Below, one piece after another: positions 2,510-64,000 of a DNA stretch of 64,000 nt (position 1 is the stretch's first letter; each line of letters starts with the position of its first letter). Both the position numbers and the translations under genes were made by a program. Origin of the DNA: Pichia kudriavzevii (lineage: Eukaryota; Ascomycota; Pichiomycetes; Pichiales; Pichiaceae); NCBI RefSeq assembly GCF_003054445.1, contig NC_042507.1, positions 1,426,001 through 1,490,000 of the forward strand. The letters are read 5' to 3'. The notes beneath the pieces are model-generated. The model was not told the origin of the DNA. It made no database searches and was given only the letters and a program-made list of their open reading frames with translations.

Positions 2510-2510
2510 T

Positions 2511-4642: not shown

Positions 4643-4681
4643 TCTAAATACTACTATACAATTTATCTATAGATTCCATAT

Positions 4682-25294: not shown

Positions 25295-25831
<537 letters not shown>

Positions 25832-28576: not shown

Positions 28577-29138
28577 CTGTTTCTTATTTTCCTAATATTA
28601 CTAGAAAAATATATTCAAGGAAGGATGTTTTTGAGTTGGTTCCAGCCAAGGCATCAAATATCGAAGGATTTTCTAATTAGCTCTGTTTGACTAAAGCAAA
28701 ACGAGAAAATACTCATCGTGTTTGTAATAGGTAAAGCATCTATTTTGCTTCTATTGTATTTAAGGAAATTAGAAGGTCCACTTCAACATCTAGTTGGGTC
28801 ACAACCTTTCTGTATAATACTTCTTCACCAGGTACTATAATTATCAACCTTATACGGAATTTGTTAATGCGTACGTGTCCGAAGCAAAATCTTTCAGTAC
28901 ATTACTTTCACTTATACATTTTGTATATTTTGTGCATGATCTTTGATTATATCTTCTACTATCTCTTTAAATAGTTTTGTTGCACTCAAGGTGACTGGAT
29001 GTTGATACCAAACAGTCCTCTAATTCATTGCTTGGGCTTCTAGACATGTCGTATGAGTCTGAGTAGTAAAAACATACGGTTTACAATCTGCCATTTACTA
29101 TTTCGCTATACACATAGGTATTGCCTGACGTTATAACA
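28577..29138 (+). repeat. ~560-bp repeat, copy A (left outer)
   Basis: First of four copies of a ~560-bp repeat. It begins ctgtttcttattttcc and ends near ttataaca, so the edges are TG...CA-like as in an LTR, but no internal element is attached to this copy. It lies in opposite orientation to copy B at the other end of the arm. It differs from B and C by several percent. Confidence 0.85.
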
Positions 29139-32100
29139 TAACTCTATATTATTATTAGTACAGAATCTGATGTGCTAAACATATTATTTGCCTGGGTAAC
29201 CTTTTCAATAGTAAAATGAATTGCTATCAAAATAGCAACATAAGTTATTATTAAAACTATTCATACAATTATACATATATATCTATTTTTTTATCTTTAA
29301 AAAAAACTGGAATCTTCATCATCGTCTTTATTTTGTGTATTATTGTCTTCCCCAAACTAGCAGTAGGCAGATCCAGTACTTCCAGCAAAAACGTGGATGT
29401 AAATACGTCGTTTAATAAGTAATTTTTATCACTTTCGTCGATTTATGCCTTTTAGATACCCCTATTATGATGATGCAAACCATTTAAAACTTGGATTATA
29501 TGAACCGTCATTGGAAAAATGATTAGCCTTCCTTTTCTAGTAAAATACCAATAGAATCACTTAAATAGCTTGATGCAGGCCACTTGTTGGTTCTGCAAAT
29601 CCTCATTGATATTCAGTACAGCCTTTACTATCTACTCTAAATAATCTTTAAAATCTACAACTACTGCCTTGTTTTTAATTCTATAGTTCTTAAAACAAAT
29701 AATTGATCTATCAATAGATAGCCTAAGCCCCTATTGTCTTTCCGTAGGTTTTTACCCAACCTAAACAAAATAGCTAGACAACTGTTTATTATTGACAGCG
29801 GAGAAGTCTCGAGATACTGAAAAGGCAATGAAACATAAACTAAGTAGCAGCTTTTAACCTATTCTCGTGGTTTGGACTTAACTTAAATACTCTGGTACAT
29901 TTTTCAAAAGTTTACAGGAAGACCTTTATTGTTATTAAGTTTATGGGAGGTTTTTAAATAAAAAGAAGCTCCACCTAAATCGCTTTTAGCAAACTTTAGT
30001 ACAAATATACCTATTCTTTATTCAACTTCTTTCTTTGATTTCATCTGTCTTAATATAAAAAATTAACTAGGTCCTTCTATTCAGGAGCAAAAATAGTTTA
30101 GATCAAGAAATAATTAGTTCCGTAGCAAAGACTATTATTAATATGTGTTATTTAGTGAGAACTTTGCTTTTTTCAAACTAGAATAGACTCAGAAGGGCCA
30201 ATTTGAAAGGTTACCCCTAGAAACACTACTACCTACAAAGAAATAGAAGAAAAATCCTAATACACAAATCGGTAAGTATGGACCTTTTGTTAGATACTTG
30301 TGATTAACTCGAATAACTATATAGAAAATAAACTAAAGCAACAAGATTGGATCTAAGTCTAAAGAAATGTACAAAGATGACTAGTTCAGTAGACTTTCAG
30401 TATTATAAACTCAATAGGCTAGGTGCTTTTAGTTTTATAAAAGAATATGATACACATCTTAACTAGGAAGTGAGAATACCCTTTCTAGAATTAGATGTCG
30501 TACACACTACAGTTAGAAGTCCTGATCGAAACAGAATTAGCTATTTATTAGGAAAATGAATAAAAGCGAGTGCCAGACTGAGAGGAAATAACCAAATGTT
30601 ATACAAAAATGAAATTCAGTGCTCTATAAAGTGAGTTCAGCTTATTGATGGAAAACATCCTACAAGACCGCTGATATTCATACTTAAGAAAAATGATTAA
30701 AATTGTGTAAAACTTACATTTTTTTTCAACTCATTCTTTTTTTTCAGGCTCAAGTCCCTTGGCAAGTGGTGTGAGAACACAAAAAGATAATAAACTTCCA
30801 GGATTCAGTTCAAACTAGCTACAACAAACATAAGCGAGTAGTGTAACTCAATGTCCAAAATCTAAACAGAAAAATACAGGTATTAGAATAGAGATGGGAA
30901 ATTCACACGAAAGACGAGTAGCAATGCACAGTGTAACAAAGAATCTACACCAGTTAAGCAGTGAATGTTTTAAAGGCCCATGACATTCCGGCAGTCCAAT
31001 GAAAAAACTTTATGAATTAAAACTAAATTATATATATATAGCTTCCAGGCTTTAGTTAGCACATAGGATTATTAAATATAGTTTTGATAATACGGATCCC
31101 ACTGAAAGTTATGGTACAGAGTTTTAGCTTTTCAAAATGGTGAATTGGCTGCTCATAATATACCACACACCGTGTTTGTGTTGTGCACCTATTGTATCTA
31201 TGATCAAGGTTTAGAAGTAGGTAGACTTAAAACCCCAATTGTTCAGAAGAAATACAAAAATACATCGATAGTTTCTTTTTATAATTAGGGTAGCAAGTGT
31301 AGAATTAACTCTGTATACTAGTAGGTCTTTTGATTTTTTTATCACTTATTTAGTGGCTTTCAACACAGTTATATGCTTAAACTTATAATGGCTGAAAAAA
31401 ATAATTAGCTTATAGCTTCTCTACATAAATAAGAACATATAGCTTGTCTATGAACGAAGTTTAAATAGTTTCCTAAAATTTTTTCTATTCAATGCAAATA
31501 AGATATTTTTGATTAGCCATTTCCTAAGATAAACATCGTTTACGCACCGTCTAATATGTTTTAGAAAAAATAAAATAAAATTAACGAATGGAATAGTATA
31601 TAGGAGTTAACAAACTTAGATTGTTAGGATTGTAGATGAATTCCCTGCAGCACGACTCAGTATTTTGAACAAAAAACATACGGTGAAATGATGTGCTTAT
31701 ATTTGTGAAGGCAAAAAATGTGAAGAAACTTAGAGATGCGATTTAAGGACTAGGCTGTCACTCAACTATAATATGGCGGATTTTTCATTTAGATTGGCAG
31801 AAATAAGTTTTAGATCATTCAAAGCATCTTTAAACACTGATCCAAAATTTATATCATAAACGGTTCTGCTGTAGGCAGGTATTTAACTATCAGTGGGTTA
31901 TATAAAAATGTATTATATAGAACGCCGCGTTACCTTCATAGCTTGAAGTTATATGATTCTGCGGTTAACCATGGAGGCTATAACTAAGAAACGAAGAAAA
32001 GCAAAAGAATGAACTGGTCCTAGTGAAAAGTCATACGTGTTTACCACTACTAGGCTACATGTACTTTTTGCATAGTCTAGTTGGCAGAATCATTCTAATA

Positions 32101-32200
32101 GGAGAAGATGGAATGGGTCAATAAGAATAATAGATGGAAGTAAGTAAACTGAAAAGAACATGCAAACAGCAATGGAATGATTTCTATTTAGATCTAGAAA
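29139..32200. other. Left arm, outer 3 kb: no genes seen
   Basis: AT-rich, no open frame of note, no RNA gene recognised. Mirrored in the right arm (about 60475-63537). Confidence 0.7.
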
Positions 32201-35200
32201 CAATGAACTAAAAGAAAGAAAAAAAATTTAAAGATTAACCAACAAGTACGTAGTACCTGCAATGTTCGACTTCTTATTAGATAAAGATAACAAGTTAGTA
32301 CAATTCAACTTCCTAACATCCAAACTAATATGGTGATTGTAGAGGGATATATTGAGAACACAACGACCAGGAAGACATAAATATATGATAAAATGAACTA
32401 AGGCTGCAGTGTGCACAAACAGCCAAGAGAAATAGGCATGCTCGACATGTTTATAAGTAAAAAAATAACTTTTGCTGAATGTTAGCAAACTGCTTTCGTT
32501 AAAAGGAAGAGCCGCGGCAATGCAATGGTTATCACAAATTAGAATATATTATGAATATTGTAGGGTATCATATGATAAGAAGGTTATATGCGCTGTTATC
32601 ACCCTGAAAAAAAAAATGGTTCTGAGAGGTCCCCCACTAAATTAACTGATAAAGATTTACTGAAAGAATGCTGACACAATTCTAAAGCTAAATTAAAAAA
32701 ACATTTGTTTCTATTGCGAAAAACAAGCCACGAAACGGAAATCATCAAATTTATGTGTAGAAGAAAGTCAGATCAACCAACGAAGAGCTCGCAGGAAGAA
32801 CTTAGGGTACCTATACCTACTATTTTCGATGTTGCTGAAGAGAAACCTACTATTGCTCAATATTTTAGTACAATTGAACAAGGAATGAGGAATACGGAAT
32901 TGTTACAACAGACCCTAGGTGCTATTTCCGTTTCCGAAATTTTAGTGCGCTTCCATGAGAGATACAGAGATAAGATAGTCTACAAGCCTGATTATATCTG
33001 TATTTTGAATGGCATCCCTCGCAGACCAAGGTCCAACAACTTTAAAAAAATAGGAACGAGACGAAAATAGTAAATTCATGGCTCCTGATGGACCTAAAAA
33101 ACTGCTTATAATAATTTTAAGTTGGTAAGAAATTCAAGTTTTTTTTAGTTTTACTAAGCCACCAGCAAATCCTAATAGCATAAATAATTCAGTTTTCTAC
33201 TATTCTTCACATAATATTCATAACAAAGGAAATGATGTTAAAATGCTTGTGAATCATGCAGGGCAAAAAAAGTGTTAATTTGGTAATCCTCGAATAGCGT
33301 CAATTATCAAAAATCCTATTGTTATTGGTTTTATAGCTATTCCATTTGGAAAAGACGTCAATGAAACTATTAATATAAGTGATATTAAGTCGCTTTACAT
33401 GTTGGTCAGTGACCACCAGATATTCATATTGGGAACTCTATTGACTAAGTGTCAATAAATTAATTTCAAAAAATTTAATGAGTGTTGATGCCGTTAAATC
33501 AACTGGTTTAAATATCAATCCACCTCCATCGAGCGTTTCACTCAATATCAAGAAAAGTACGTTAATAAGTTAGTTAGGAGAAATGAATCCTATCTCACTT
33601 TTATCTACTCGATTGATGTTGACGAAGTCGAAAACCCTGATAATATTAACTAACCCATGAATACAAATCCCAATAAGCTTCTCTGAGAAACAGGAACTAA
33701 CAAAACAAGTTGAAGTTTTAATCAAACAAGGTTTCATCAAAACTAGTTCCAAATCCTTTAACAGTCCAGTGCTATTTGTTAGAAAGAAAGATGGTACTAT
33801 GCGTATGTGTGTTGATTATAGGATTCTAAACAATAATACTGCTAGGAACAAGTTTCCACTTCCAGATATTGATCAATTGATTTCAAGATTTGGTAAGGCA
33901 AAAGTCTATTCTAAGTTAGAGTTGATGCCTGGTTACTACCAAGTGAGAATTGCGGATGAAGATGTCGAGAAGACGGCTTTTTCTACTCTGGCCATTATGA
34001 ATGGATGGTAATGCCGGCTGGACTAACAAGTGCATCTGCGACTTTTCCACAGATGATGAATAATGTCTTGTCTAAAAAAATAAATGGATTTGTCCAAGTG
34101 TATTTAGACGACATTTTTATATACTCCGAAGATGTTGAAACTCACGGTAAGCACGTGAAAGAAGTTTTGTCGACACTAAGAAAACATAAACTAATTACGA
34201 AGAAGTCGAAATGCAGATTCTTTTATCAAGAATTTAGGTTTTTAGGACAAGTTGTTACACCAATTTGTATTCAAACCGCTCTCGAGAAAATAAAAAAGGT
34301 AAAGAGTTGGCCAACACCAAAGACTGTCGAAGAAGCACAAAGGTTTATTGGTTTAACTTCGTATTATAGAAGGTATATCAAAGGGCATTCCAAAATTGCT
34401 AATCCAATTCATAAGTTCATGACAAAACAAATTAAATGGACAAGTGAACAAGACGAAGCCTTCAACAAACTAAAGAAAGCTTTGATATCAAGTCCCATCT
34501 TGGTGCACCCAAGCTGGTCAGGCAATTGTAAATTTGTTCTACATACCGATGCGTGTGGAGTATCGTTAGGTTATACTCTAGAACAGTTGGACGAAACAGG
34601 TAAATGACGAGGTGTGATTGCTTACGGTTCAAAGAAGCTAGTTGGAAGTCAACTGAATTATGGAATATATGACCGTGAATTTATGGCTGTTGTTGAAGCA
34701 TTAAGAACATGGAGATATTATCTCATGGGAAGACATTTCATTGTTATGACGGATCACAAGAGTTTAATTTACTTAAAAAACCAAAATCTCATAGACTCCA
34801 CTAGAGTGGCTAGATGGATGGACTTTTTACCACAGTTTGATTTTGATATTCGTTACTTACAGGGAAAAAACAATTCCGCTGCTGATGCGTTATCTAGATA
34901 CCCATACAACCACTAAAACAGGTTAACGCTAGCCAAAATCGAATTGGCGTTGCTGGAATTGACGTAAAAAGAGGAGGATGAAACACAGAGACATTCCTTG
35001 ACACTAAGTACTATCGAAGCCAATCAAGAGTTAAAAAAAAAAATTATTACGGGTTATAAAAAAAATACTAATTATGCCTTGATATTCAGAACTTTGAGAG
35101 AGAAAACAAAAGTTCCAGTTGAGATAAAAAATCATATCAAACATTTCTGTTATCAAGATGAGGTACGTTATTATAAGACATTAGAGTCTCAAGATTTCTT

Positions 35201-36450
35201 TAAAGTAGTTATTCCAAACTACAAGAAACTACCGTATAGAATATTCAAAAATGCACACGATTCCAAAGATGCTTGTCACTTTGGTGCATGGAAAACTTAT
35301 TTGAATCTTAAAGATAGTTTTTATTGGTCATCTATGTTGAGACAAATCAAAAATGGGTAGAAACCTGCCATATCTGTCAACAGCACAACACTAACACCAG
35401 AAGAAGACAAGGGTTGTTTTCCCCTTTACCAATCCCAACAGGCTACACTATCATTATGGTTATTGTCGATCGCTTCTCAAAAATGACACATCTTATACCC
35501 ACGCACAAAAGACTTAATGCTACTGCATGTGCTCGTTTGTTTAGTGACAAAGATATTCGGTTTATGAATAAGTTCTGGCAGACATTACATTATCTCAATG
35601 GTAGTTCTCTATTATTTTCAACTACTAATCATCCAGAAACTGATGGTCAAACTGAAAGATTCAACAAGATTGTTAATCAGTTACTTCGGAAATATTCTGC
35701 AAACGTTCAATTATCCTGGAATGAGCATCTGTCTATGTGTGAACTTAGTTACAATTCAACGTACCAAGATTCCATTAAAGCAAGTCCTTTTGAAATCGCC
35801 TACGGGTATGAATCGAACATGATTAAAAAAAGTAAATAGCTGGGATTTGGAGGATAACAAATATTCACCTAACGCAGAAGAATTTGTGAGACGTGTGAAA
35901 TTGATTTTAGAGCAAACACTGGATAATATTGTAAAGCGCAAGGGCAACAAGGAAAACACCATAATAGAAAAAGAAGATATTTTGAATATAAAGTTGGTGA
36001 TTTTAGTGTTAGTGCATCAAGATGCCTTTGGTGTGAATATAAGGTACACAAAAATTCAACCAGTATGATATGGGCCATACAGACTAGTCGAGAAAATAAA
36101 CGGCAATGCTTATAAAGTCGATTTACCGGTTATTAATTTGAAGGATTGTGAATCAAATGTACAGTGGATTAAATACTATAAAGAAAACCCCAATATTTAC
36201 CACGAATCGCCTAGAACAGAGCGTGAGATGTTGGCAAGAATTAACGAACTGAGTGGTATCGGTGGATGGTCAGAAGAACCAGGCAAAGAAAAGACTTATG
36301 ATGTCTTCTGGAAAGACTGTGATCAAACTCTAGCAAGAAAGGTGCCTGAAAGAATATTCAACCAAGCAGCTTTGTCACTACGTCAAAGCCTAATGCACAA
36401 TGCCAAATCGATCCAAGAACACGAACAAGCTTGATATCAACAAAGTAATC
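32200..36450 (+). mobile_element. Ty3/gypsy (Metaviridae) fossil, left-arm copy
   Basis: Relic of a Ty3/gypsy LTR retrotransposon in + orientation. Gag-like matter lies at about 32.45-33.07 kb, reverse transcriptase at about 33.7-34.5 kb (VDYRILNNNT and VYLDDIFIYS motifs), RNase H at about 34.5-34.9 kb and integrase at about 35.0-36.4 kb. The order is that of Ty3. It is broken, with at least half a dozen breaks, and I find no LTR pair at its ends. It is shared with the right arm, so it was present before or was spread with the arm duplication. Old relative to the arm duplication. Confidence 0.9.
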
Positions 36451-39307
36451 ATGATTATAATACATAGAACGTTCCTATTTTCTCGAATCTGATGAGAGAG
36501 GTATAGATATTGTTATTACTAGGAAATATTGACAAGTATTAACTCTACTTTGGAAATCTATGTGGAAGTATTTAAAATGGAGTTTTGTAAAGAACTTATA
36601 TAATACAACATAAAAACTAAATTAAGCAAGGCAATAATCTGATACTTGTAGGGAACATCATGTGTCTACTAAGCTAGATATCCAAGGACGGGTGCACTTT
36701 TTGAATGCTAAGAAATATAAACACAACCATATGCATTAGTAAATACTAACTCCTTAATTTTGACAGGTTGCCTGATCAAGTCTGTTTGGCTTCATTTGGC
36801 TCATAATGATGTTCGCATTTCGATTCACCAATGTTTAAATTATCTCTCTTAACAATCAGAATCAGCATGATCAGTTGCTTTAACTCTCATTGAGTGGGCG
36901 CAAGTACTCAAGGGAAAGTAAACAAAAATCTACTCAATCTACTGACTTTTTATTTTTCTGCTGCACCTATGACGCTCACGACTTTTCGTTCTCTAGAGAA
37001 GCGGAAAAGATATACCTGATGTAAATAAAAAGGCATGGGACTTAGCTTGCCCATTCGAAACAACTTTTTACAATTATGACAGGAAACATTTTGTAGGCAA
37101 GCATTATATAGGCTACAAAACAGTAATATTTTTTATTTTTGCTTTCAATACTAGAGCTGTTTAAATCAAAGATGCTGATATATGCTCATTAACTTATGTT
37201 GTTTCTCTATATGTAGTTGTTCTCTGCCTTGATAGGAAAGTGATAGCCTTTTTCAGAGCATTGAAACTCAAGTCTAAATATATTCCCAAAAAACACTTTA
37301 TCCTTGCAAAAAGTTCAAAGACTACTGGTTTTGTTAAGCGACAGTATAATTGTTTAAGTCGAGTTTGCAAGTGGAACATACACTATTTCTTAGAAAAACA
37401 AATATTACTGAGTTGGAAATTATGTTTATGATAACATCAGTAGGTATGTTATACTGTTTTCCACCCCAATTCAACTCTTCTAATTGAATAACCGAGGAAA
37501 ATATTTCAAACCATCAAAATATATATACCATTGGCCAGAAACGACTACTTTTACCTAATGTCTCTGCACGCCGCTGAATGTTATTTTCGAAGTACTTTGG
37601 AAACTTATACTTAATTTTGCAAAAGGACTTTTTAGAATTACCTAACTTCATATAATATGAAACTCGGCGCTCAAATTCTAGCATTTGGCATTTGAAACCG
37701 GTAAACCACTTTTTCCTTGATTGTTGTACAAAAAAAAAACAGATATTGGCTTCTGTGAAATTACCGAGGAGCATCTGTTTCTTTTTCGATCTCGTTTACA
37801 CTAAAATCAATGGCTTATAAAGTGTACATATAGTTATAGTTTATCAAATTGGGTCTGTGTAAAAACATAAAAAAACATGTTCAAAATGATAGAGCTTACA
37901 TCGAGGCAAGGTTAAGTAATTCACGCATAAGGCAAAAGAGAGAATACCGCTGGTCTATGTCTCTGTTATTTGTTTTGGTTAGTGTTTGGTAGGCGAAGCC
38001 TTCTTAAAGTCGCCTGGAAATATAACTTAACTTTTTTACTAAACAGCACCCAATTGAAAAAAAAGACCTCCATGAGCTGGTGATTAAATCACGTAAGAGT
38101 AATCCATTTTTGATTTTATAAGAAGTTAAATGCTGGCCTCTAGAGACGCTTTATGGACGGAAATAGCCCGAAAGTAATTATTTCAAGCATGAATATACTA
38201 TCAGTTCCGCCTTAGACGTTTATTGAAAAGGAGCTTTTATTATACAAATATGTACGCGTTGACAACTCTTTCTTTTTCCTTCTGTTAAGAATAATATAAA
38301 CAGTTATTTCCTTTTATTCTAAAGAACAAAAAGAAGATTCTCAAAACAAAGCTCAATGGTTTACGCATCATTTCCAGTATTTTTGTCAAGGCTTTGAAGC
38401 TGGGCGCTATAATCAACAATTTCATATTTTGGGATTACAATATATAACAGCAAGTTATTAAGAAAGCTATGAGGAAAAAATCGATTTGTTGAAGACTTCA
38501 TAGCTATCTATAGTTTCTATCAAGTATTTGGCAATATAAAAATGGATGATAGTAAATGTAGACTTCGGATAATTACTTATAGTTAAACGAAATTCAAAGG
38601 GGATTTTAACAAATCCCAAAGGTTTAGGACAATTTTGTCTGGCCTAAAGTTTCACTACTGAAATACAGTAGAGATAAGTGGCGCTACGATAATAACAAGT
38701 TCCCCTTCTAGTCATTAAAGACATCATTATGTTTACAAAAATGAAGAGAGTAAAGCTAACAGTGAAAAGCTGCTCAAAAAATATTGCAGACCGGGTTAAT
38801 TTGCAAAGTTTCGAATATTGCAAAAACTTCTCGTTATTTTTCCAGGTTTTGTATTACGCATAAAGGGAAAATTAAAAAAGATAGCTTCGGGTTTTGTAAA
38901 CAGAGTCAAGAGACGGTCTGCTTCCTAGTTTGAAAACTTTGCAAATGTACAGTACGATATAAAGGGCAAAAGCTATGTATATTGAACAATTTCAATAATA
39001 GTAATTCTTTGAACTAGGTCTCCTCGTTTGAAGTTAGTATTCTTCATTTGAACAAGGACACTAACAAATTCCTGCAGCCTCTTGAAAAGCAGCGGCTAAA
39101 GAGTTCTTGCTCCTGATGCTTTAAAAATGGAGCTGTCTTTGTAAAGAAAAAGATTTGTCAATAATGGAAAAAAAATACTTAATGAAAAGTAGCACTTTGG
39201 ATATTTACTACTTGTTTGATCCCGTTGTTGGCCAAACTCTTAGAAAATTACATTACTTTGAAATAAATATTATTAATACAAAAAATTTCATAATATTTAC
39301 TTCGACA
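36451..39307. other. Left arm, inner 2.9 kb: no genes supported
   Basis: AT-rich. A few frames of 60-86 codons (for example 37514-37774 on the minus strand) are mirrored exactly in the right arm because the arms are identical; none resembles a known protein. Confidence 0.65.
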
Positions 39308-39867
39308 TATGCTATAATGTCGGGCAATACCTATGTGTATAGCGAAATAGTAAAGGGCGGGTTGTAAATCGTATGTTTTCACTACTCAGACTCATACGAC
39401 ATGTCTAGAAGCCCAAGCAATGAATTAGAAGACTGTTTGGTACCAATATTCAGTCACCTTGGGTGTAACAAAACTATTTAAAGAGATACTAGAAGATATA
39501 ACCAAATATCATGCACAAAATATAAATGTATAAGTGAAAGTAATGTATTGACACATTTTGTTTCGGGCACGTGCGCATTAACAGATTCCGTATAAGGTTG
39601 ATAATTATAGTACCTGGTGAAGAAGCATTATTCAGAAAGGTTGTAGCCCAACTAGATGTTGAAGTGGACCTTCTAATTTCCTTAAATACAATAGAAGCAA
39701 AATAGGTGTTTCACCTATCACAAACACGATGAGTATTTTCTTGTTTTGCTTTAGTCAAATAGAGCTAATTAGAAAATCCTTCGATATTTGATGCCTTGGC
39801 TGGAACCAACTCAAAAACATCTTTCTGGATTATATTTTTCTAGTAATATTAGGAAAATAAGAAACAG
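39308..39867 (-). repeat. ~560-bp repeat, copy B (left inner)
   Basis: Reverse-orientation copy of the ~560-bp repeat. Essentially the same as copy C, its partner in the right arm, and several percent different from copy A. Confidence 0.88.
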
Positions 39868-39880
39868 TTACCCAGAAATA

Positions 39881-40412
39881 GATGGGATTAATAAACAACC
39901 GTAACATTTTTTATCTTTTCATGCGATTTTCTCGAGCTTTACATTTTCTATTCTCTCAAGAGCCAAGTTTGTGTAGCATTTGCTTGGCCTATAATTTTTA
40001 TTTAGCTCAACGCTAAAGAATACTTGTTATTGAAAAATACCACCAGTAATAAAGTACGCAAATATAGCTTCTCTAAATATTCATGAGTATCCACCTTGTA
40101 AAGGCCTCTGTAGAAAAATAACCTTATATTTGGCTAATAATTCTCACCTTAAAACAGTTTCAAAATCATATAAATGGGGTTCGTAGAAAGGTGAACAAAA
40201 TAACCCAATATATCAATAACTCATGATCCAATTTGTTCATCAGCTAGATAATTATCTAGCTGATGAATACTACTTTTCCCTAGACTCGTTAAGATTTTTC
40301 AAAATATATTGCGCCAGGGAAACTATACGTTGTACTGTTAACATTAAAATTAAAGTATGGAATAAAAAAGTTTGTTAGTTCAATATATGATTGATAGATC
40401 TGTTTGCAAAGT
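39881..40412. repeat. ~532-bp insertion beside copy B, spanning the arm/core boundary
   Basis: Next to copy A the sequence runs directly from acccaaaata into the flank aaaaattgttt. Next to copy B the matching points (ending 39880 and starting 40413) are separated by about 532 bp. The arm homology ends inside this insert at 40137, and a 32-bp perfect palindrome lies in its core part. Its nature is unknown; it lacks clear TG...CA edges. Confidence 0.6.
40236..40267. repeat. 32-bp perfect palindrome in the core
   Basis: Half-site ttcatcagctagataa followed directly by its exact reverse complement, with no spacer. It lies 99 bp inside the core from the left arm boundary and is not present at the right boundary. 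Confidence 0.95.
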
Positions 40413-41494: not shown

Positions 41495-41512
41495 AACACC
41501 TTGGGATAAGAG

Positions 41513-45180: not shown

Positions 45181-45186
45181 GAGAAA

Positions 45187-52538: not shown

Positions 52539-52808
52539 TTAGCGAAATATAAGGTTATTGCTTTACAGAGGCCTTTACAAGATGGATACTCATGAATATT
52601 TAGAGAAGCTATATTTGCGTACTTTATTACTGGTGGTATTTTTCAATAACAAGTATTCTTTAGCGTTGAGCTAAATAAAAATTATAGGCCAAGCAAATGC
52701 TACACAAACTTGGCTCTTGAGAGAATAGAAAATGTAAAGCTCGAGAAAATCGCATGAAAAGATAAAAAATGTTACGGTTGTTTATTAATCCCATCTATTT
52801 CTGGGTAA

Positions 52809-53368
52809 CTGTTTCTTATTTTCCTAATATTACTAGAAAAATATAATCCAGAAAGATGTTTTTGAGTTGGTTCCAGCCAAGGCATCAAATATCGAAGGAT
52901 TTTCTAATTAGCTCTATTTGACTAAAGCAAAACAAGAAAATACTCATCGTGTTTGTGATAGGTGAAACACCTATTTTGCTTCTATTGTATTTAAGGAAAT
53001 TAGAAGGTCCACTTCAACATCTAGTTGGGCTACAACCTTTCTGAATAATGCTTCTTCACCAGGTACTATAATTATCAACCTTATACGGAATCTGTTAATG
53101 CGCACGTGCCCGAAACAAAATGTGTCAATACATTACTTTCACTTATACATTTATATTTTGTGCATGATATTTGGTTATATCTTCTAGTATCTCTTTAAAT
53201 AGTTTTGTTACACCCAAGGTGACTGAATATTGGTACCAAACAGTCTTCTAATTCATTGCTTGGGCTTCTAGACATGTCGTATGAGTCTGAGTAGTGAAAA
53301 CATACGATTTACAACCCGCCCTTTACTATTTCGCTATACACATAGGTATTGCCCGACATTATAGCATA
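52809..53368 (+). repeat. ~560-bp repeat, copy C (right inner)
   Basis: Partner of copy B. In stretches compared base by base the two agree completely. Confidence 0.88.
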
Positions 53369-56225
53369 TGTCGAAGTAAATATTATGAAATTTTTTGTAT
53401 TAATAATATTTATTTCAAAGTAATGTAATTTTCTAAGAGTTTGGCCAACAACGGGATCAAACAAGTAGTAAATATCCAAAGTGCTACTTTTCATTAAGTA
53501 TTTTTTTTCCATTATTGACAAATCTTTTTCTTTACAAAGACAGCTCCATTTTTAAAGCATCAGGAGCAAGAACTCTTTAGCCGCTGCTTTTCAAGAGGCT
53601 GCAGGAATTTGTTAGTGTCCTTGTTCAAATGAAGAATACTAACTTCAACCGAGGAGACCTAGTTCAAAGAATTACTATTATTGAAATTGTTCAATATACA
53701 TAGCTTTTGCCCTTTATATCGTACTGTACATTTGCAAAGTTTTCAAACTAGGAAGCAGACCGTCTCTTGACTCTGTTTACAAAACCCGAAGCTATCTTTT
53801 TTAATTTTCCCTTTATGCGTAATACAAAACCTGGAAAAATAACGAGAAGTTTTTGCAATATTCGAAACTTTGCAAATTAACCCGGTCTGCAATATTTTTT
53901 GAGCAGCTTTTCACTGTTAGCTTTACTCTCTTCATTTTTGTAAACATAATGATGTCTTTAATGACTAGAAGGGGAACTTGTTATTATCGTAGCGCCACTT
54001 ATCTCTACTGTATTTCAGTAGTGAAACTTTAGGCCAGACAAAATTGTCCTAAACCTTTGGGATTTGTTAAAATCCCCTTTGAATTTCGTTTAACTATAAG
54101 TAATTATCCGAAGTCTACATTTACTATCATCCATTTTTATATTGCCAAATACTTGATAGAAACTATAGATAGCTATGAAGTCTTCAACAAATCGATTTTT
54201 TCCTCATAGCTTTCTTAATAACTTGCTGTTATATATTGTAATCCCAAAATATGAAATTGTTGATTATAGCGCCCAGCTTCAAAGCCTTGACAAAAATACT
54301 GGAAATGATGCGTAAACCATTGAGCTTTGTTTTGAGAATCTTCTTTTTGTTCTTTAGAATAAAAGGAAATAACTGTTTATATTATTCTTAACAGAAGGAA
54401 AAAGAAAGAGTTGTCAACGCGTACATATTTGTATAATAAAAGCTCCTTTTCAATAAACGTCTAAGGCGGAACTGATAGTATATTCATGCTTGAAATAATT
54501 ACTTTCGGGCTATTTCCGTCCATAAAGCGTCTCTAGAGGCCAGCATTTAACTTCTTATAAAATCAAAAATGGATTACTCTTACGTGATTTAATCACCAGC
54601 TCATGGAGGTCTTTTTTTTCAATTGGGTGCTGTTTAGTAAAAAAGTTAAGTTATATTTCCAGGCGACTTTAAGAAGGCTTCGCCTACCAAACACTAACCA
54701 AAACAAATAACAGAGACATAGACCAGCGGTATTCTCTCTTTTGCCTTATGCGTGAATTACTTAACCTTGCCTCGATGTAAGCTCTATCATTTTGAACATG
54801 TTTTTTTATGTTTTTACACAGACCCAATTTGATAAACTATAACTATATGTACACTTTATAAGCCATTGATTTTAGTGTAAACGAGATCGAAAAAGAAACA
54901 GATGCTCCTCGGTAATTTCACAGAAGCCAATATCTGTTTTTTTTTTGTACAACAATCAAGGAAAAAGTGGTTCACCGGTTTCAAATGCCAAATGCTAGAA
55001 TTTGAGCGCCGAGTTTCATATTATATGAAGTTAGGTAATTCTAAAAAGTCCTTTTGCAAAATTAAGTATAAGTTTCCAAAGTACTTCGAAAATAACATTC
55101 AGCGGCGTGCAGAGACATTAGGTAAAAGTAGTCGTTTCTGGCCAATGGTATATATATTTTGATGGTTTGAAATATTTTCCTCGGTTGTTCAATTAGAAGA
55201 GTTGAATTGGGGTGTAAAACAGTATAACATACCTACTGATGTTATCATAAACATAATTTCCAACTCAGTAATATTTGTTTTTCTAAGAAATAGTGTATGT
55301 TCCACTTGCAAACTCGACTTAAACAATTATACTGTCGCTTAACAAAACCAGTAGTCTTTGAACTTTTTGCAAGGATAAAGTGTTTTTTGGGAATATATTT
55401 AGACTTGAGTTTCAATGCTCTGAAAAAGGCTATCACTTTCCTATCAAGGCAGAGAACAACTACATATAGAGAAACAACATAAGTTAATGAGCATATATCA
55501 GCATCTTTGATTTAAACAGCTCTAGTATTGAAAGCAAAAATAAAAAATATTACTGTTTTGTAGCCTATATAATGCTTGCCTACAAAATGTTTCCTGTCAT
55601 AATTGTAAAAAGTTGTTTCGAATGGGCAAGCTAAGTCCCATGCCTTTTTATTTACATCAGGTATATCTTTTCCGCTTCTCTAGAGAACGAAAAGTCGTGA
55701 GCGTCATAGGTGCAGCAGAAAAATAAAAAGTCAGTAGATTGAGTAGATTTTTGTTTACTTTCCCTTGAGTACTTGCGCCCACTCAATGAGAGTTAAAGCA
55801 ACTGATCATGCTGATTCTGATTGTTAAGAGAGATAATTTAAACATTGGTGAATCGAAATGCGAACATCATTATGAGCCAAATGAAGCCAAACAGACTTGA
55901 TCAGGCAACCTGTCAAAATTAAGGAGTTAGTATTTACTAATGCATATGGTTGTGTTTATATTTCTTAGCATTCAAAAAGTGCACCCGTCCTTGGATATCT
56001 AGCTTAGTAGACACATGATGTTCCCTACAAGTATCAGATTATTGCCTTGCTTAATTTAGTTTTTATGTTGTATTATATAAGTTCTTTACAAAACTCCATT
56101 TTAAATACTTCCACATAGATTTCCAAAGTAGAGTTAATACTTGTCAATATTTCCTAGTAATAACAATATCTATACCTCTCTCATCAGATTCGAGAAAATA
56201 GGAACGTTCTATGTATTATAATCAT
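53369..56225. other. Right arm, inner 2.9 kb: no genes supported
   Basis: Mirror image of 36451-39307, with the same short chance frames. Confidence 0.65.
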
Positions 56226-59200
56226 GATTACTTTGTTGATATCAAGCTTGTTCGTGTTCTTGGATCGATTTGGCATTGTGCATTAGGCTTTGACGTAGTG
56301 ACAAAGCTGCTTGGTTGAATATTCTTTCAGGCACCTTTCTTGCTAGAGTTTGATCACAGTCTTTCCACAAGACATCATAAGTCTTTTCCTTGCCTGATTC
56401 TTCTGACCATCCACCGATACCAGTCATTTCGTTGATTCTTGCCAACATCTCACGCTCTGTTCTAGGCGGTTCCTGGTAAATATTGGGGTTTTCTTTATAG
56501 TATTTAATCCACTGTACATTTGATTCACGATCCTTCAAATTAATAACCAGTAAATCGACTTCATAAGCATTGTCGTTTATTTTCTTGACTAGTCTGTATG
56601 GCCCATACTATACTGGTTGAATTTTTGTGTACCTTATATTCACACCAAAGGCATCTTGATGCACTAACACTAAATCACCAACTTTATATTCAAAATATCT
56701 TCTTTTTCTATTATGGTGTTTTCCTTGTTGCCCTTGCGCTTTACAATATTATCCAGTGTTTGCTCTAAAATCAATTTCACACGTCTCACAAATTCTTCTG
56801 CGTTAGGTGAATATTTGTTATCCTCCAAATCCCAGCTATTTACTTTTTTTAATCATGTTCGATTCATACCCGTAGGCGATTTCAAAAGGACTTGCTTTAA
56901 TGGAATCTTGGTACGTTGAATTGTAACTAAGTTCACACATAGATAGATGTTCATCCCAGAATAATTGATCGTTTGAAGAATATTTCCGAAGTAACTGATT
57001 AACAATCTTGTTGACTCTTTCGGTTTGACCATCAGTTTCTGGATGATTAGTAGTTGAAAATAATAGAGAACTACCATTGAGATAATGTAATGTCTGCCAG
57101 AACTTATTCATAAACCGAATATCTTTGTCACTAAACAAACGAGCACATGCAGTAGCATTAAGTCTTTTGTGCGTGGGTATAAGATGTGTCATTTTTGAGA
57201 AGCGATCGACAATAACCATAATGATAGTGTAGCCTGTTGGGATTGGTAAAGGGGAAAACAACCCTTGTCTTCTTCTGGTGTTAGTGTTGTGCTGTTGACA
57301 GATATGGCAGGTTTCTACCCATTTTTGATTTGTCTCAACATAGATGACCAATAAAAACTATCTTTAAGATTCAAATAAGTTTTCCATGCACCAAAGTGAC
57401 AAGCATCTTTGGAATCGTGTGCATTTTTGAATATTCTATACGGTAGTTTCTTGTAGTTTGGAATAACTACTTTAAAGAAATCTTGAGACTCTAATGTCTT
57501 ATAATAACGTACCTCATCTTGATAACAGAAATGTTTGATATGATTTTTTATCTCAACTGGAACTTTTGTTTTCTCTCTCAAAGTTCTGAATATCAAGGCA
57601 TAATTAGTATTTTTTTTATAACCCGTAATAATTTTTTTTTTTAACTCTTGATTGGCTTCGATAGTACTTAGTGTCAAGGAATGTCTCTGTGTTTCATCCT
57701 CCTCTTTTTACGTCAATTCCAGCAACGCCAATTCGATTTTGGCTAGCGTTAACCTGTTTTAGTGGTTGTATGGGTATCTAGATAACGCATCAGCAGCGGA
57801 ATTGTTTTTTCCCTGTAAGTAACGAATATCAAAATCAAACTGTGGTAAAAAGTCCATCCATCTAGCCACTCTAGTGGAGTCTATGAGATTTTGGTTTTTT
57901 AAGTAAATTAAACTCTTGTGATCCGTCATAACAATGAAATGTCTTCCCATGAGATAATATCTCCATGTTCTTAATGCTTCAACAACAGCCATAAATTCAC
58001 GGTCATATATTCCATAATTCAGTTGACTTCCAACTAGCTTCTTTGAACCGTAAGCAATCACACCTCGTCATTTACCTGTTTCGTCCAACTGTTCTAGAGT
58101 ATAACCTAACGATACTCCACACGCATCGGTATGTAGAACAAATTTACAATTGCCTGACCAGCTTGGGTGCACCAAGATGGGACTTGATATCAAAGCTTTC
58201 TTTAGTTTGTTGAAGGCTTCGTCTTGTTCACTTGTCCATTTAATTTGTTTTGTCATGAACTTATGAATTGGATTAGCAATTTTGGAATGCCCTTTGATAT
58301 ACCTTCTATAATACGAAGTTAAACCAATAAACCTTTGTGCTTCTTCGACAGTCTTTGGTGTTGGCCAACTCTTTACCTTTTTTATTTTCTCGAGAGCGGT
58401 TTGAATACAAATTGGTGTAACAACTTGTCCTAAAAACCTAAATTCTTGATAAAAGAATCTGCATTTCGACTTCTTCGTAATTAGTTTATGTTTTCTTAGT
58501 GTCGACAAAACTTCTTTCACGTGCTTACCGTGAGTTTCAACATCTTCGGAGTATATAAAAATGTCGTCTAAATACACTTGGACAAATCCATTTATTTTTT
58601 TAGACAAGACATTATTCATCATCTGTGGAAAAGTCGCAGATGCACTTGTTAGTCCAGCCGGCATTACCATCCATTCATAATGGCCAGAGTAGAAAAAGCC
58701 GTCTTCTCGACATCTTCATCCGCAATTCTCACTTGGTAGTAACCAGGCATCAACTCTAACTTAGAATAGACTTTTGCCTTACCAAATCTTGAAATCAATT
58801 GATCAATATCTGGAAGTGGAAACTTGTTCCTAGCAGTATTATTGTTTAGAATCCTATAATCAACACACATACGCATAGTACCATCTTTCTTTCTAACAAA
58901 TAGCACTGGACTGTTAAAGGATTTGGAACTAGTTTTGATGAAACCTTGTTTGATTAAAACTTCAACTTGTTTTGTTAGTTCCTGTTTCTCAGAGAAGCTT
59001 ATTGGGATTTGTATTCATGGGTTAGTTAATATTATCAGGGTTTTCGACTTCGTCAACATCAATCGAGTAGATAAAAGTGAGATAGGATTCATTTCTCCTA
59101 ACTAACTTATTAACGTACTTTTCTTGATATTGAGTGAAACGCTCGATGGAGGTGGATTGATATTTAAACCAGTTGATTTAACGGCATCAACACTCATTAA

Positions 59201-60475
59201 ATTTTTTGAAATTAATTTATTGACACTTAGTCAATAGAGTTCCCAATATGAATATCTGGTGGTCACTGACCAACATGTAAAGCGACTTAATATCACTTAT
59301 ATTAATAGTTTCATTGACGTCTTTTCCAAATGGAATAGCTATAAAACCAATAACAATAGGATTTTTGATAATTGACGCTATTCGAGGATTACCAAATTAA
59401 CACTTTTTTTGCCCTGCATGATTCACAAGCATTTTAACATCATTTCCTTTGTTATGAATATTATGTGAAGAATAGTAGAAAACTGAATTATTTATGCTAT
59501 TAGGATTTGCTGGTGGCTTAGTAAAACTAAAAAAAACTTGAATTTCTTACCAACTTAAAATTATTATAAGCAGTTTTTTAGGTCCATCAGGAGCCATGAA
59601 TTTACTATTTTCGTCTCGTTCCTATTTTTTTAAAGTTGTTGGACCTTGGTCTGCGAGGGATGCCATTCAAAATACAGATATAATCAGGCTTGTAGACTAT
59701 CTTATCTCTGTATCTCTCATGGAAGCGCACTAAAATTTCGGAAACGGAAATAGCACCTAGGGTCTGTTGTAACAATTCCGTATTCCTCATTCCTTGTTCA
59801 ATTGTACTAAAATATTGAGCAATAGTAGGTTTCTCTTCAGCAACATCGAAAATAGTAGGTATAGGTACCCTAAGTTCTTCCTGCGAGCTCTTCGTTGGTT
59901 GATCTGACTTTCTTCTACACATAAATTTGATGATTTCCGTTTCGTGGCTTGTTTTTCGCAATAGAAACAAATGTTTTTTTAATTTAGCTTTAGAATTGTG
60001 TCAGCATTCTTTCAGTAAATCTTTATCAGTTAATTTAGTGGGGGACCTCTCAGAACCATTTTTTTTCAGGGTGATAACAGCGCATATAACCTTCTTATCA
60101 TATGATACCCTACAATATTCATAATATATTCTAATTTGTGATAACCATTGCATTGCCGCGGCTCTTCCTTTTAACGAAAGCAGTTTGCTAACATTCAGCA
60201 AAAGTTATTTTTTTACTTATAAACATGTCGAGCATGCCTTTTTCTCTTGGCTGTTTGTGCACACTGCAGCCTTAGTTCATTTTATCATATATTTATGTCT
60301 TCCTGGTCGTTGTGTTCTCAATATATCCCTCTACAATCACCATATTAGTTTGGATGTTAGGAAGTTGAATTGTACTAACTTGTTATCTTTATCTAATAAG
60401 AAGTCGAACATTGCAGGTACTACGTACTTGTTGGTTAATCTTTAAATTTTTTTTCTTTCTTTTAGTTCATTGTTT
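56226..60475 (-). mobile_element. Ty3/gypsy (Metaviridae) fossil, right-arm copy
   Basis: Mirror copy of the left-arm element in minus orientation. Integrase lies at about 56.2-57.7 kb, RNase H at about 57.75-58.2 kb, reverse transcriptase at about 58.2-58.95 kb and gag-like matter at about 59.6-60.2 kb. Broken, with at least half a dozen breaks, largely shared with the left copy. The integrase 3' part differs more from its partner than the rest of the arm does. Confidence 0.9.
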
Positions 60476-63400
60476 CTAGATCTAAATAGAAATCATTCCA
60501 TTGCTGTTTGCATGTTCTTTTCAGTTTACTTACTTCCATCTATTATTCTTATTGACCCATTCCATCTTCTCCTATTAGAATGATTCTGCCAACTAGACTA
60601 TGCAAAAAGTACATGTAGCCTAGTAGTGGTAAACACGTATGACTTTTCACTAGGACCAGTTCATTCTTTTGCTTTTCTTCGTTTCTTAGTTATAGCCTCC
60701 ATGGTTAACCGCAGAATCATATAACTTCAAGCTATGAAGGTAACGCGGCGTTCTATATAATACATTTTTATATAACCCACTGATAGTTAAATACCTGCCT
60801 ACAGCAGAACCGTTTATGATATAAATTTTGGATCAGTGTTTAAAGATGCTTTGAATGATCTAAAACTTATTTCTGCCAATCTAAATGAAAAATCCGCCAT
60901 ATTATAGTTGAGTGACAGCCTAGTCCTTAAATCGCATCTCTAAGTTTCTTCACATTTTTTGCCTTCACAAATATAAGCACATCATTTCACCGTATGTTTT
61001 TTGTTCAAAATACTGAGTCGTGCTGCAGGGAATTCATCTACAATCCTAACAATCTAAGTTTGTTAACTCCTATATACTATTCCATTCGTTAATTTTATTT
61101 TATTTTTTCTAAAACATATTAGACGGTGCGTAAACGATGTTTATCTTAGGAAATGGCTAATCAAAAATATCTTATTTGCATTGAATAGAAAAAATTTTAG
61201 GAAACTATTTAAACTTCGTTCATAGACAAGCTATATGTTCTTATTTATGTAGAGAAGCTATAAGCTAATTATTTTTTTCAGCCATTATAAGTTTAAGCAT
61301 ATAACTGTGTTGAAAGCCACTAAATAAGTGATAAAAAAATCAAAAGACCTACTAGTATACAGAGTTAATTCTACACTTGCTACCCTAATTATAAAAAGAA
61401 ACTATCGATGTATTTTTGTATTTCTTCTGAACAATTGGGGTTTTAAGTCTACCTACTTCTAAACCTTGATCATAGATACAATAGGTGCACAACACAAACA
61501 CGGTGTGTGGTATATTATGAGCAGCCAATTCACCATTTTGAAAAGCTAAAACTCTGTACCATAACTTTCAGTGGGATCCGTATTATCAAAACTATATTTA
61601 ATAATCCTATGTGCTAACTAAAGCCTGGAAGCTATATATATATAATTTAGTTTTAATTCATAAAGTTTTTTCATTGGACTGCCGGAATGTCATGGGCCTT
61701 TAAAACATTCACTGCTTAACTGGTGTAGATTCTTTGTTACACTGTGCATTGCTACTCGTCTTTCGTGTGAATTTCCCATCTCTATTCTAATACCTGTATT
61801 TTTCTGTTTAGATTTTGGACATTGAGTTACACTACTCGCTTATGTTTGTTGTAGCTAGTTTGAACTGAATCCTGGAAGTTTATTATCTTTTTGTGTTCTC
61901 ACACCACTTGCCAAGGGACTTGAGCCTGAAAAAAAAGAATGAGTTGAAAAAAAATGTAAGTTTTACACAATTTTAATCATTTTTCTTAAGTATGAATATC
62001 AGCGGTCTTGTAGGATGTTTTCCATCAATAAGCTGAACTCACTTTATAGAGCACTGAATTTCATTTTTGTATAACATTTGGTTATTTCCTCTCAGTCTGG
62101 CACTCGCTTTTATTCATTTTCCTAATAAATAGCTAATTCTGTTTCGATCAGGACTTCTAACTGTAGTGTGTACGACATCTAATTCTAGAAAGGGTATTCT
62201 CACTTCCTAGTTAAGATGTGTATCATATTCTTTTATAAAACTAAAAGCACCTAGCCTATTGAGTTTATAATACTGAAAGTCTACTGAACTAGTCATCTTT
62301 GTACATTTCTTTAGACTTAGATCCAATCTTGTTGCTTTAGTTTATTTTCTATATAGTTATTCGAGTTAATCACAAGTATCTAACAAAAGGTCCATACTTA
62401 CCGATTTGTGTATTAGGATTTTTCTTCTATTTCTTTGTAGGTAGTAGTGTTTCTAGGGGTAACCTTTCAAATTGGCCCTTCTGAGTCTATTCTAGTTTGA
62501 AAAAAGCAAAGTTCTCACTAAATAACACATATTAATAATAGTCTTTGCTACGGAACTAATTATTTCTTGATCTAAACTATTTTTGCTCCTGAATAGAAGG
62601 ACCTAGTTAATTTTTTATATTAAGACAGATGAAATCAAAGAAAGAAGTTGAATAAAGAATAGGTATATTTGTACTAAAGTTTGCTAAAAGCGATTTAGGT
62701 GGAGCTTCTTTTTATTTAAAAACCTCCCATAAACTTAATAACAATAAAGGTCTTCCTGTAAACTTTTGAAAAATGTACCAGAGTATTTAAGTTAAGTCCA
62801 AACCACGAGAATAGGTTAAAAGCTGCTACTTAGTTTATGTTTCATTGCCTTTTCAGTATCTCGAGACTTCTCCGCTGTCAATAATAAACAGTTGTCTAGC
62901 TATTTTGTTTAGGTTGGGTAAAAACCTACGGAAAGACAATAGGAGCTTAGGCTATCTATTGATAGATCAATTATTTGTTTTAAGAACTATAGAATTAAAA
63001 ACAAGGCAGTAGTTGTAGATTTTAAAGATTATTTAGAGTAGATAGATAGTAAAGGCTGTACTGAATATCAATGAGGATTTGCAGAACCAACAAGTGGCCT
63101 GCATCAAGCTATTTAAGTGATTCTATTGGTATTTTACTAGAAAAGGAAGGCTAATCATTTTTCCAATGACGGTTCATATAATCCAAGTTTTAAATGGTTT
63201 GCATCATCATAATAGGGGTATCTAAAAGGCATAAATCGACGAAAGTGATAAAAATTACTTATTAAACGACGTATTTACATCCACGTTTTTGCTGGAAGTA
63301 CTGAATCTGCCTACTGCTAGTTTGGGGAAGACAATAATACACAAAATAAAGACGATGATGAAGATTCCAGTTTTTTTTAAAGATAAAAAAATAGATATAT

Positions 63401-63537
63401 ATGTATAATTGTATGAATAGTTTTAATAATAACTTATGTTGCTATTTTGATAGCAATTCATTTTACTATTGAAAAGGTTACCCAGGCAAATAATATGTTT
63501 AGCACATCAGATTCTGTACTAATAATAATATAGAGTT
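60476..63537. other. Right arm, outer 3 kb: no genes seen
   Basis: Mirror image of 29139-32200; AT-rich with no open frame of note. Confidence 0.7.
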
Positions 63538-64000
63538 ATGTTATAACGTCAGGCAATACTTATGTGTATAGCGAAATAGTAAATGGCAGATTGTAAACCG
63601 TATGTTTTTACTACTCAGACTCATACGACATGTCTAGAAGCCCAAGCAATGAATTAGAGGACTGTTTGGTATCAACATCCAGTCACCTTGGGTGTAATAA
63701 AACTTATTTAAAGAGATAGTAGAAGATATAATCAAAGATCATGCACAAAATATAAATGTATAAGTGAAAGTAATGTATTGACACATTTTGCTTCGGGCAC
63801 GTGCGCATTAACAGATTTTGTATAAGGTTGATAATTATAGTACCTGGTGAAGAAGCATTATTCAGAAAGGTTGTAGCCCAACTAGATGTTGAAGTGGACC
63901 TTCTAATTTCCTTAAATACAATAGAAGCAAAATAGATGCTTTACCTATTACAAACACGATGAGTATTTTCTCGTTTTGCTTTAGTCAAACAGAGCTAATT
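63538..64000 (-). repeat. ~560-bp repeat, copy D (right outer, cut by window end)
   Basis: Partner of copy A but a mosaic. The outer part (about 63900-64000) equals copy A. The middle (about 63770-63890) follows copies B/C. The inner part alternates, with A-like blocks around 63670-63745. Confidence 0.85.

Follow-up and report, generated by a model that had tools for sequence, protein, structure and literature searches.

The inverted repeat (IR) that fills the right-hand part of the window (the whole 64,000-nucleotide stretch of DNA analysed) is very probably the regional centromere CEN2 of Pichia kudriavzevii (Candida krusei) strain CBS573, as judged from its sequence organisation. The locus is already known from the bioinformatic work of Douglass et al. 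2018 (PMC6053246), where such IR structures, CEN2 among them, are presented as the five centromeres of CBS573. The ranges given in that text are (i) arms of 7.9-14.5 kb, (ii) 99% arm identity, (iii) a middle region of 8.0-18.3 kb and (iv) a total of 31.7-37.8 kb. All five IRs measured here fall within these ranges (for CEN2: 12.68 kb, 99.45%, 12.40 kb and 37.76 kb), with one IR locus per contig; both support the sequence-only reading of the region as the centromere of its chromosome.

Within the window, self-comparison aligns positions 28675-40137 with 64000-52539 in inverted orientation at 99.46% identity (11,468 columns, 51 mismatches). The right arm reaches the window edge and the repeat goes on past 64000; the full IR is measured by self-BLAST after addition of the next 20 kb (C2:1490001-1510000). 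The full arms occupy window positions 27458-40137 and 52539-65216 (12,680 and 12,678 bp) and align at 99.448% identity (~99.45%), with 58 mismatches and 6 gap openings; the whole IR spans 37,759 bp, of which the middle is 12,401 bp. At such length a chance origin of the arm similarity is excluded.

27458..40137, + strand, CEN2 left arm, 12,680 bp (self-BLAST)
40138..52538, no strand, CEN2 middle region, 12,401 bp, most of it with homology to CEN1 and to parts of CEN4 and CEN5
52539..64000, - strand, CEN2 right arm, extending beyond the window to 65216 (self-BLAST)

The giant near-perfect IR first read from the window is thus real, and with flanking DNA added it is larger (37,759 bp) than claimed. 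The inner arm limits proposed at 40137 and 52539 stand, while the left boundary is 27458 rather than 28675 and the right arm had been cut by the window; the suggested extension of the self-comparison beyond 64000 places its outer limit at 65216. The arms are nearly equal in length as stated, with a net difference of 2 bp, not 1. The region is also AT-rich as described: GC is 33.6% over the IR, against 37-40% in the 4-kb bins that make up the window's first 20 kb.

The left neighbour of the IR is a ubiquitin-S27a gene that ends at 25831, and beyond the IR on the right the next ATG open reading frame (ORF) of at least 100 aa starts at about window position 65587. Between them, Rfam at its gathering threshold (27200-64000) recognises a tRNA-Arg at 27353-27425 and a tRNA-Trp at 41423-41494, both on the - strand, and 20 ATG ORFs of at least 70 aa are present in 27430-64000, of which 14 were scanned against Pfam. 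Half of the scanned ORFs (7/14) have reverse transcriptase, RNase H or integrase domains, those at 33799 and 42544 below the curated cut-off; six have no Pfam match, and one has a sub-threshold match only (Jiraiya, E 0.008). The remaining six ORFs are four in the right arm with scanned left-arm counterparts and a mirrored pair (35598 and 56853) that overlaps the scanned ORFs 35456 and 56836 in a different frame. On this survey (Rfam, and Pfam on 14/20 ORFs), the locus has tRNAs and Ty3 pseudogenes and is without protein-coding genes, in line with the earlier description.

27352..27425, - strand, tRNA-Arg(TCT), just outside the left arm and transcribed away from the centromere
33666..36480, + strand, degenerate Ty3/gypsy relic in the left arm, with homologs in other centromeres
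41422..41495, - strand, tRNA-Trp(CCA), in the middle region
41511..41765, no strand, putative PkudTy3A-type LTR, 15 bp upstream of tRNA-Trp
41768..45345, - strand, degenerate Ty3/gypsy relic of the Ty3A type, with reverse transcriptase, RNase H and integrase fragments
56196..59009, - strand, mirror copy of the left-arm relic, in the right arm

The left-arm relic is probably the published PkudTy3B, a name we infer. Six Ty3A-type matches in the genome (93% over query 1374-4850, with 37 of 68 candidates scored) are distributed as one on C2, two on C3 and three on C4, the same distribution as the six intact Ty3A elements of Douglass et al. 2018 (PMC6053246). This count leaves out one further long match on C3, at 90%.

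Related methylotrophic yeasts switch mating type by inversion: recombination between the arms of a flip-flop IR inverts the middle and switches cell type. A near-identical IR such as this one would allow its middle to invert, yet a mating-type role here is barely credible. The middle contains tRNA-Trp and a Ty3 relic, and the same structure is found on all five chromosomes. When all six middle ORFs of at least 70 aa are scanned, three have retroelement domains, one has a sub-threshold match and two have nothing; none of the six matches a MAT-type domain in Pfam, a scan that intron-broken genes could escape.

Sequence homologous to the CEN2 region forms one cluster on each of the five contigs, and each cluster has one large IR, in agreement with the prediction of one similar inverted-repeat desert per chromosome; the count covers homologs of the CEN2 region, with retroelement copies and one short weak match set aside.

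CEN1 IR: total 31.7 kb, middle 12.6 kb, arm identity 99.79%
CEN2 IR: total 37.8 kb, middle 12.4 kb, arm identity 99.45%
CEN3 IR: total 35.1 kb, middle 8.07 kb, arm identity 99.29%
CEN4 IR: total 34.2 kb, middle 18.27 kb, arm identity 99.85%
CEN5 IR: total 37.1 kb, middle 10.4 kb, arm identity 99.18%

All 12 genomic matches of a 1.28-kb segment (window 28500-29778) fall within the five IR loci. The loci are chromosome-internal, with the closest approaches to contig ends on the right side of CEN5 (~160 kb) and the left side of CEN3 (~190 kb). These observations bear on whether the locus is a retrotransposon or repeat island that lacks centromere function, with the true centromere elsewhere. The Ty3 relics and tRNA-associated LTR-like repeats within the IR are compatible with such an island, and the published centromere evidence is bioinformatic only; a 2025 figure legend classes three species, by citation including P. 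kudriavzevii, under 'bioinformatic analysis only', and the literature search found no Cse4 ChIP or Hi-C evidence for the five loci. Nonetheless, an island is very unlikely given one homologous locus per contig, the confinement of the 1.28-kb segment and the internal positions. Loss of heterozygosity is also rarest at these centromeres in the population (Douglass et al. 2018, PMC6053246), a pattern that also follows from distance to telomeres. The plasmid sequence 'CEN-L' of P. kudriavzevii, from functional screening (Cao et al. 2020, as cited in a review), neither supports nor refutes the centromere assignment.

A 577-bp repeat, here labelled 'J', is present only at the five centromere loci and occurs four times in the CEN2 IR.

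28565..29140, + strand, J, outer copy, left arm
39308..39880, - strand, J, inner copy, left arm, inverted and 92% identical to the outer copy
52796..53368, + strand, J, inner copy, right arm
63537..64000, - strand, J, outer copy, right arm, running on to 64109

As a marker of arm/middle boundaries J is rejected: both inner boundaries of CEN5 and one of CEN1 have it, but those of CEN2, CEN3 and CEN4 do not. The CEN2 core, described at first as unique, is so within its own chromosome only; most of it has homologs in CEN1, CEN4 or CEN5. Of the 25,081 bp that make up the CEN2 left arm and core, 1,836 bp are without a homolog in the other four centromeres (at least 80% identity over at least 100 bp). 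CEN1 and CEN2 have 12.5 kb in common with the mirror axis shifted, such that the CEN1 arms correspond to the CEN2 middle and vice versa.

The differences between arms are unevenly placed. In CEN2, two of 13 1-kb bins hold 44 of the 58 mismatches, and the longest identical run between arms reaches 3,045 bp, against a mean maximum of 935 bp under random placement; the corresponding figures for CEN5 are 9,760 and 658 bp. None of 5000 random placements yields a run as long in either case. Arm differences are not significantly clustered in CEN1 (P 0.46), CEN3 (P 0.056) or CEN4 (P 0.07). For 181 variant sites another centromere has homologous sequence: both alleles occur elsewhere at 108 of them, one at 73 and neither at 0. 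None of the 82 variant sites of CEN3 has such a homolog.

35653..36308, no strand, cluster of 23 arm-to-arm mismatches in CEN2

At the first eight sites of this cluster (35653-35731), alleles of CEN4 are on the left arm and those of CEN1/CEN5 on the right. In the outer 500 bp of CEN5, 35 of the 53 variant sites pair the CEN2 allele on the left arm with the CEN4 allele on the right. Among 57 testable CEN2 sites, 26 have an allele private to one arm (the left arm in 23 cases), with no donor visible there. Many of the private left-arm alleles fall in the J cluster.

The arms of CEN2 and CEN5 look as if shaped by gene conversion within and between centromeres, since long identical tracts are broken by clusters of differences, many with alleles of other centromeres. 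The continuing homogenisation proposed from the near-identity of the arms is thus supported at CEN2 and CEN5 but not at CEN1, CEN3 and CEN4, where clustering is not significant. Part of the arm identity could come from collapse of a diploid assembly or from its polishing with short reads. That the assembler or such polishing created the mirror arms or made them too alike is most unlikely, even though arms at 99.2-99.9% identity far exceed short-read length and the assembly is PacBio with Illumina correction (PMC6053246). Strain CBS5147, separately PacBio-sequenced, is reported to be collinear, its 13 contigs having been merged by hand (PMC6053246); moreover, random error would not produce the allele pattern of 108/181 sites with both alleles in other centromeres and none with neither. 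In the text of Douglass et al. 2018 (PMC6053246) as available, 'gene conversion' is mentioned for ABC genes only and conversion patches do not appear; the patches are additions here.

The outer arm ends point to a second repeat.

27437..28019, + strand, LTR-like repeat, here labelled 'LTR-B', outer end of the left arm

At CEN2 a gap of 11 bp separates the start of this repeat from the 5' end of tRNA-Arg, and elsewhere in the genome it sits just upstream of tRNA genes. About 37 copies or fragments are found genome-wide, several truncated (five of 37 starts are extrapolated by 12-21 bp from matches). LTR-B is putatively an LTR; no internal region is found between two copies. Each of the six outer arm ends of CEN1, CEN2 and CEN5 is no more than 25 bp away from an LTR-B start; CEN4 misses by 270 bp, and CEN3 breaks the pattern. 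Repeats of this kind may set the bounds of the IR or may have given rise to it. In the available text of Douglass et al. 2018 (PMC6053246) the term LTR occurs 0 times and LTR-bounded arm ends are absent; these ends are likewise an addition.

A tRNA gene at every outer IR end is rejected as a rule. At CEN2 and CEN5, outward-facing tRNAs sit 28-32 bp beyond the IR. CEN4 has one 4 bp from its right end and one on the left 4.5 kb away, behind a Ty3A copy; the nearest tRNA to the right of CEN3 is an inward-facing tRNA-Thr, 966 bp off. At CEN1 the default scan finds no tRNA within 5 kb of the IR ends and Rfam recognises none in either flank. On visual inspection, what adjoins the CEN1 IR on its right resembles a decayed tRNA. 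These positions rest on the default scan plus one tRNA just right of CEN4; a lowered-threshold aragorn scan gave mostly spurious tRNAs and is otherwise set aside for tRNAs.

Compared to the published CBS573 centromeres (PMC6053246), the loci agree in chromosome number, one IR desert per chromosome, sizes, Ty3 relics, tRNAs and the way in which CEN1 and CEN2 have exchanged IR and middle sequence; the only structural difference is a longest arm of 13.5 kb here versus 14.5 kb. Komagataella phaffii, of the same clade, has a single IR around a middle but with a 2-kb IR, a 1-kb middle and 'no homogenization' between chromosomes. Candida tropicalis has an IR with middle regions homogenised between chromosomes, while its IR sequences are only a few kb and it belongs to another order, Serinales. 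In Schizosaccharomyces pombe, the regional centromeres of chromosomes 1 and 2 resemble those of P. kudriavzevii in size and organisation (Douglass discussion, PMC6053246). Other papers drawn on are PMC12711049, PMC6595149, PMC12925627 and PMC7700301.

The genome has a CENP-C domain gene, one Piwi and three RNase III domain genes, and chromodomains in two ORFs; a heterochromatic centromere of the S. pombe type would call for both RNAi and H3K9 methylation machinery. S. pombe centromeres have tRNA genes near their boundaries and use H3K9-methylated heterochromatin; no Pre-SET match is found in this genome, in a search that has no positive control and cannot show absence. NDC10_II, the domain looked for as a sign of a CBF3-dependent point centromere, is also without a match, and its controls are silent too, such that absence cannot be shown. 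CEN2 may work as a chromatin domain that carries Cse4 and is maintained epigenetically on AT-rich DNA free of genes, its long mirror arms being flanking repeats of the kind found in C. tropicalis, K. phaffii and S. pombe.

A tentative model, itself rather unlikely, is that IR centromeres arose from, and stay limited by, inverted pairs of tRNA-targeted LTRs. An ancestral centromere would be flanked by outward-facing tRNA genes; a Ty3-like element with insertion sites ~10-15 bp upstream of tRNAs would land on the centromere side of each, in opposite orientations; break-induced copying between the two LTRs would then lengthen the mirror arms inward; and later interchromosomal conversion would move the mirror axis, as between CEN1 arms and CEN2 middle. 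The route from tRNA-targeted LTRs to inverted homology to conversion is directly testable by strain comparison, because the arm ends are bounded by LTRs or tRNAs and conversion patches are traceable. If true, tRNA-targeted retroelements would be builders of regional centromere symmetry, which bears on the wider question of why several distantly related yeasts have mirror-image centromeres.

The giant inverted repeat (IR) of the window is real, but its arms extend beyond the 28675-40137 and 52539-64000 given by the sequence-only reading. Self-BLAST of the window alone aligns 28675-40137 with 64000-52539 in inverted orientation at 99.46% identity. As this alignment touches the last base of the window, the adjoining 20 kb of the contig was added, and the right arm was found to end at 65216. 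The features of this locus (CEN2) are, in window positions:

to 25831, left flanking protein gene, a ubiquitin-S27a fusion (end)
27437 to ~28019, copy of LTR-B (an LTR-like repeat, so called from its inferred nature), within which the left arm begins; its first base lies 11 bp from a tRNA-Arg
27458-40137, left arm, 12,680 bp (window plus next 20 kb)
52539-65216, right arm, 12,678 bp (window plus next 20 kb), inverted
28565-29140, 39308-39880, 52796-53368 and 63537-64109, copies of J, a 577-bp segment
from ~65587, right flanking ORF (start)

The arms are 99.45% identical (58 mismatches) and enclose a middle of 12,401 bp, for a total of 37,759 bp. The IR contains a tRNA-Trp and decayed Ty3/gypsy fragments. 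Among the 14 ORFs scanned, from 20 of at least 70 aa, seven have retroelement domains and none has a host-gene domain above the cut-off.

Searches with arm and core DNA, retroelement copies and LTRs aside, detect one cluster on each of the five contigs (CEN1 to CEN5 on C1 to C5) among the best-scored candidates, whose lists are lower bounds; the similar desert sought on each other chromosome is, by homology to CEN2, present. All 12 matches of a 1.28-kb segment fall inside these clusters, and J is confined to the five loci, with one to four copies in each, making it a candidate shared functional element. The sole exception for non-LTR arm sequence among the best-scored candidates is a 222-bp stretch (C2:1403474-1403695, minus strand) that is 71% like 28248-28470; it is situated some 50 kb to the left of CEN2 and belongs to none of the five IR loci.

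The IR totals of CEN1 to CEN5 (31,719, 37,759, 35,103, 34,173 and 37,087 bp) agree with the published ranges, CEN2 being the largest. Douglass et al. 2018 (PMC6053246) describe the five CBS573 centromeres as 35-kb gene deserts, each with one large IR (arms of 7.9-14.5 kb at 99% identity, middles of 8.0-18.3 kb, totals of 31.7-37.8 kb). The same paper reports 21 tRNA genes and Ty3 pseudogenes within them, and sequence traded between the IRs and middles of different centromeres. Ty3A-type matches at 93% number 1, 2 and 3 on contigs 2, 3 and 4 (a further long C3 match at 90% is left out of this count), the same spread as the six intact elements named in that paper. Judging from its figure legend and citation, a 2025 paper, which characterises the species' centromeres as 'IRs and homogenization', assigns them to a bioinformatic-only class of evidence. 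The literature search, with subscription papers mostly outside its coverage, turned up neither a Cse4 nor a Hi-C study of P. kudriavzevii, nor any publication on its centromeres beyond those cited. A CEN-L sequence was obtained by functional screening in Issatchenkia orientalis, the same species (Cao et al. 2020, as cited in a review), and the S. cerevisiae CEN is reported not to improve plasmid behaviour in P. kudriavzevii, which fits a non-point centromere. The topoisomerase gene of the window has named Pichia species at 59-62% among the 120 matches listed.

The centromere interpretation appears correct: CEN2 would serve kinetochore function, judging from its position, its occurrence once per chromosome, the absence of genes and its likeness to the centromeres of C. 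tropicalis, K. phaffii and S. pombe. Domain searches reveal (i) a CENP-C domain protein, (ii) a Piwi-domain protein and (iii) three RNase III domain proteins in the genome, while Pre-SET and Ndc10 searches, run without a positive control, give no match. The Argonaute-like frame (C1:2340124-2341080, minus strand; Piwi domain E 1.6e-74, 995-aa frame) is, by title, the subject of none of the nine papers that mention both this species and Argonaute. With such a gene present, a transcribed IR could feed RNAi; this reading is not built upon, as the centromeric transcription reported by Douglass et al. 2018 (PMC6053246) is limited to Ty3 elements. A chromodomain match (E 1e-11) lies in a 1199-aa frame at C2:2321463-2321615 (plus strand).

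If the arms diverged by mutation alone, their differences should be spread out, as in 5000 random placements. At CEN2, two 1-kb bins hold 44 of 58 mismatches, and identity is unbroken for up to 3,045 bp (random mean maximum 935; 0/5000 as long). At CEN5, the outer 2 kb holds 79 of 99 mismatches and the identical run reaches 9,760 bp (random mean maximum 658; none as long). The homogenisation proposed from the sequence is thereby supported at CEN2 and CEN5, whereas clustering is not significant at CEN1 (P 0.46), CEN3 (0.056) or CEN4 (0.07).

The variants recur among centromeres. Within CEN2 35653-35731, every left-arm allele (8/8 sites) is that of CEN4 and every right-arm allele (8/8) that of CEN1 and CEN5; within 36067-36127, CEN1 is the sole match of the right arm, at 6/6 sites. 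In CEN1, CEN2, CEN4 and CEN5 pooled, 181 of 185 variant sites have a homolog in another centromere, with both alleles found elsewhere at 108, one at 73 and neither at 0; in CEN3, 0/82 sites have such a homolog. Within the outer 500 bp of CEN5, the left arm carries the CEN2 allele at 49/53 variant sites, and at 35/53 this is paired with the CEN4 allele on the right; the CEN2 right flank and CEN5 left flank also align over 647 bp at 98.3%, tRNA-Glu and tRNA-Lys included. Counting against a simple donor account, CEN2 has an arm-private allele at 26/57 testable sites, of which the left arm accounts for 23; one run of these, in J (28861-28897), has no donor among the other four centromeres. Overall, this is how arm differences would look after conversion both inside a centromere and from one centromere to another; which way each transfer went is inferred.

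The mirror axis is also placed differently on common DNA: CEN1 1476010-1488511 is collinear with CEN2 44735-57238 (98.8% over 12.5 kb), yet runs from left arm into middle in CEN1 and from middle into right arm in CEN2, an IR/middle swap that Douglass et al. 2018 (PMC6053246) give in general terms. Farther out, CEN1 is flanked by a second inverted pair (C1:1462288-1463948 and 1510077-1511741; 1.67 kb, 92% identity). The left member of this pair, an ORF of 549 aa, resembles a sugar transporter by eye; CEN1 thus seems to have paralogs on opposite sides, facing one another.

LTR-B, of which 37 copies or fragments are listed, marks most outer arm ends. In 11 of 20 dispersed copies examined, the 5' end of an outward-facing tRNA lies in the outer flank, 31-36 bp from a conserved TGTC word (~10-15 bp from the LTR-B start); in seven the flank has a Ty3A LTR instead, and in two it has neither. 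LTR-B thus acts as would an element that targets Pol III genes. The IR outer ends lie 2 and 6 bp from the nearest LTR-B start at CEN1, 21 and 21 bp at CEN2, 17 and 23 bp at CEN5, 269 and 268 bp at CEN4, where a Ty3A LTR is outermost, and 1,004 and 13,342 bp at CEN3, the misfit. A random point falls within 300 bp of an LTR-B copy with probability 0.0019, although conversion, by copying the arm ends, makes them non-independent. The left and right tRNAs differ at CEN2 and at CEN5. At all five loci, the 150-bp stretches bordering the IR on its two sides score 0.55-0.61 against each other by global alignment (100 random pairs, 0.52-0.63), as for unrelated sequences. Arm homology would accordingly be read as ending where the LTR-like repeat ends. 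The hypothesis put forward here is that the LTR-like repeats seeded the IR: set in a single orientation next to tRNAs that face outward, they would provide ready-made inverted homology. Alternatively, the IR may be older, the repeats having inserted later at tRNAs on its edge and then been homogenised. Douglass et al. 2018 (PMC6053246) do not use the term LTR in their main text. The CEN2 locus is real, correctly interpreted and already published; to this the conversion patches and LTR-bounded arm ends are modest additions.
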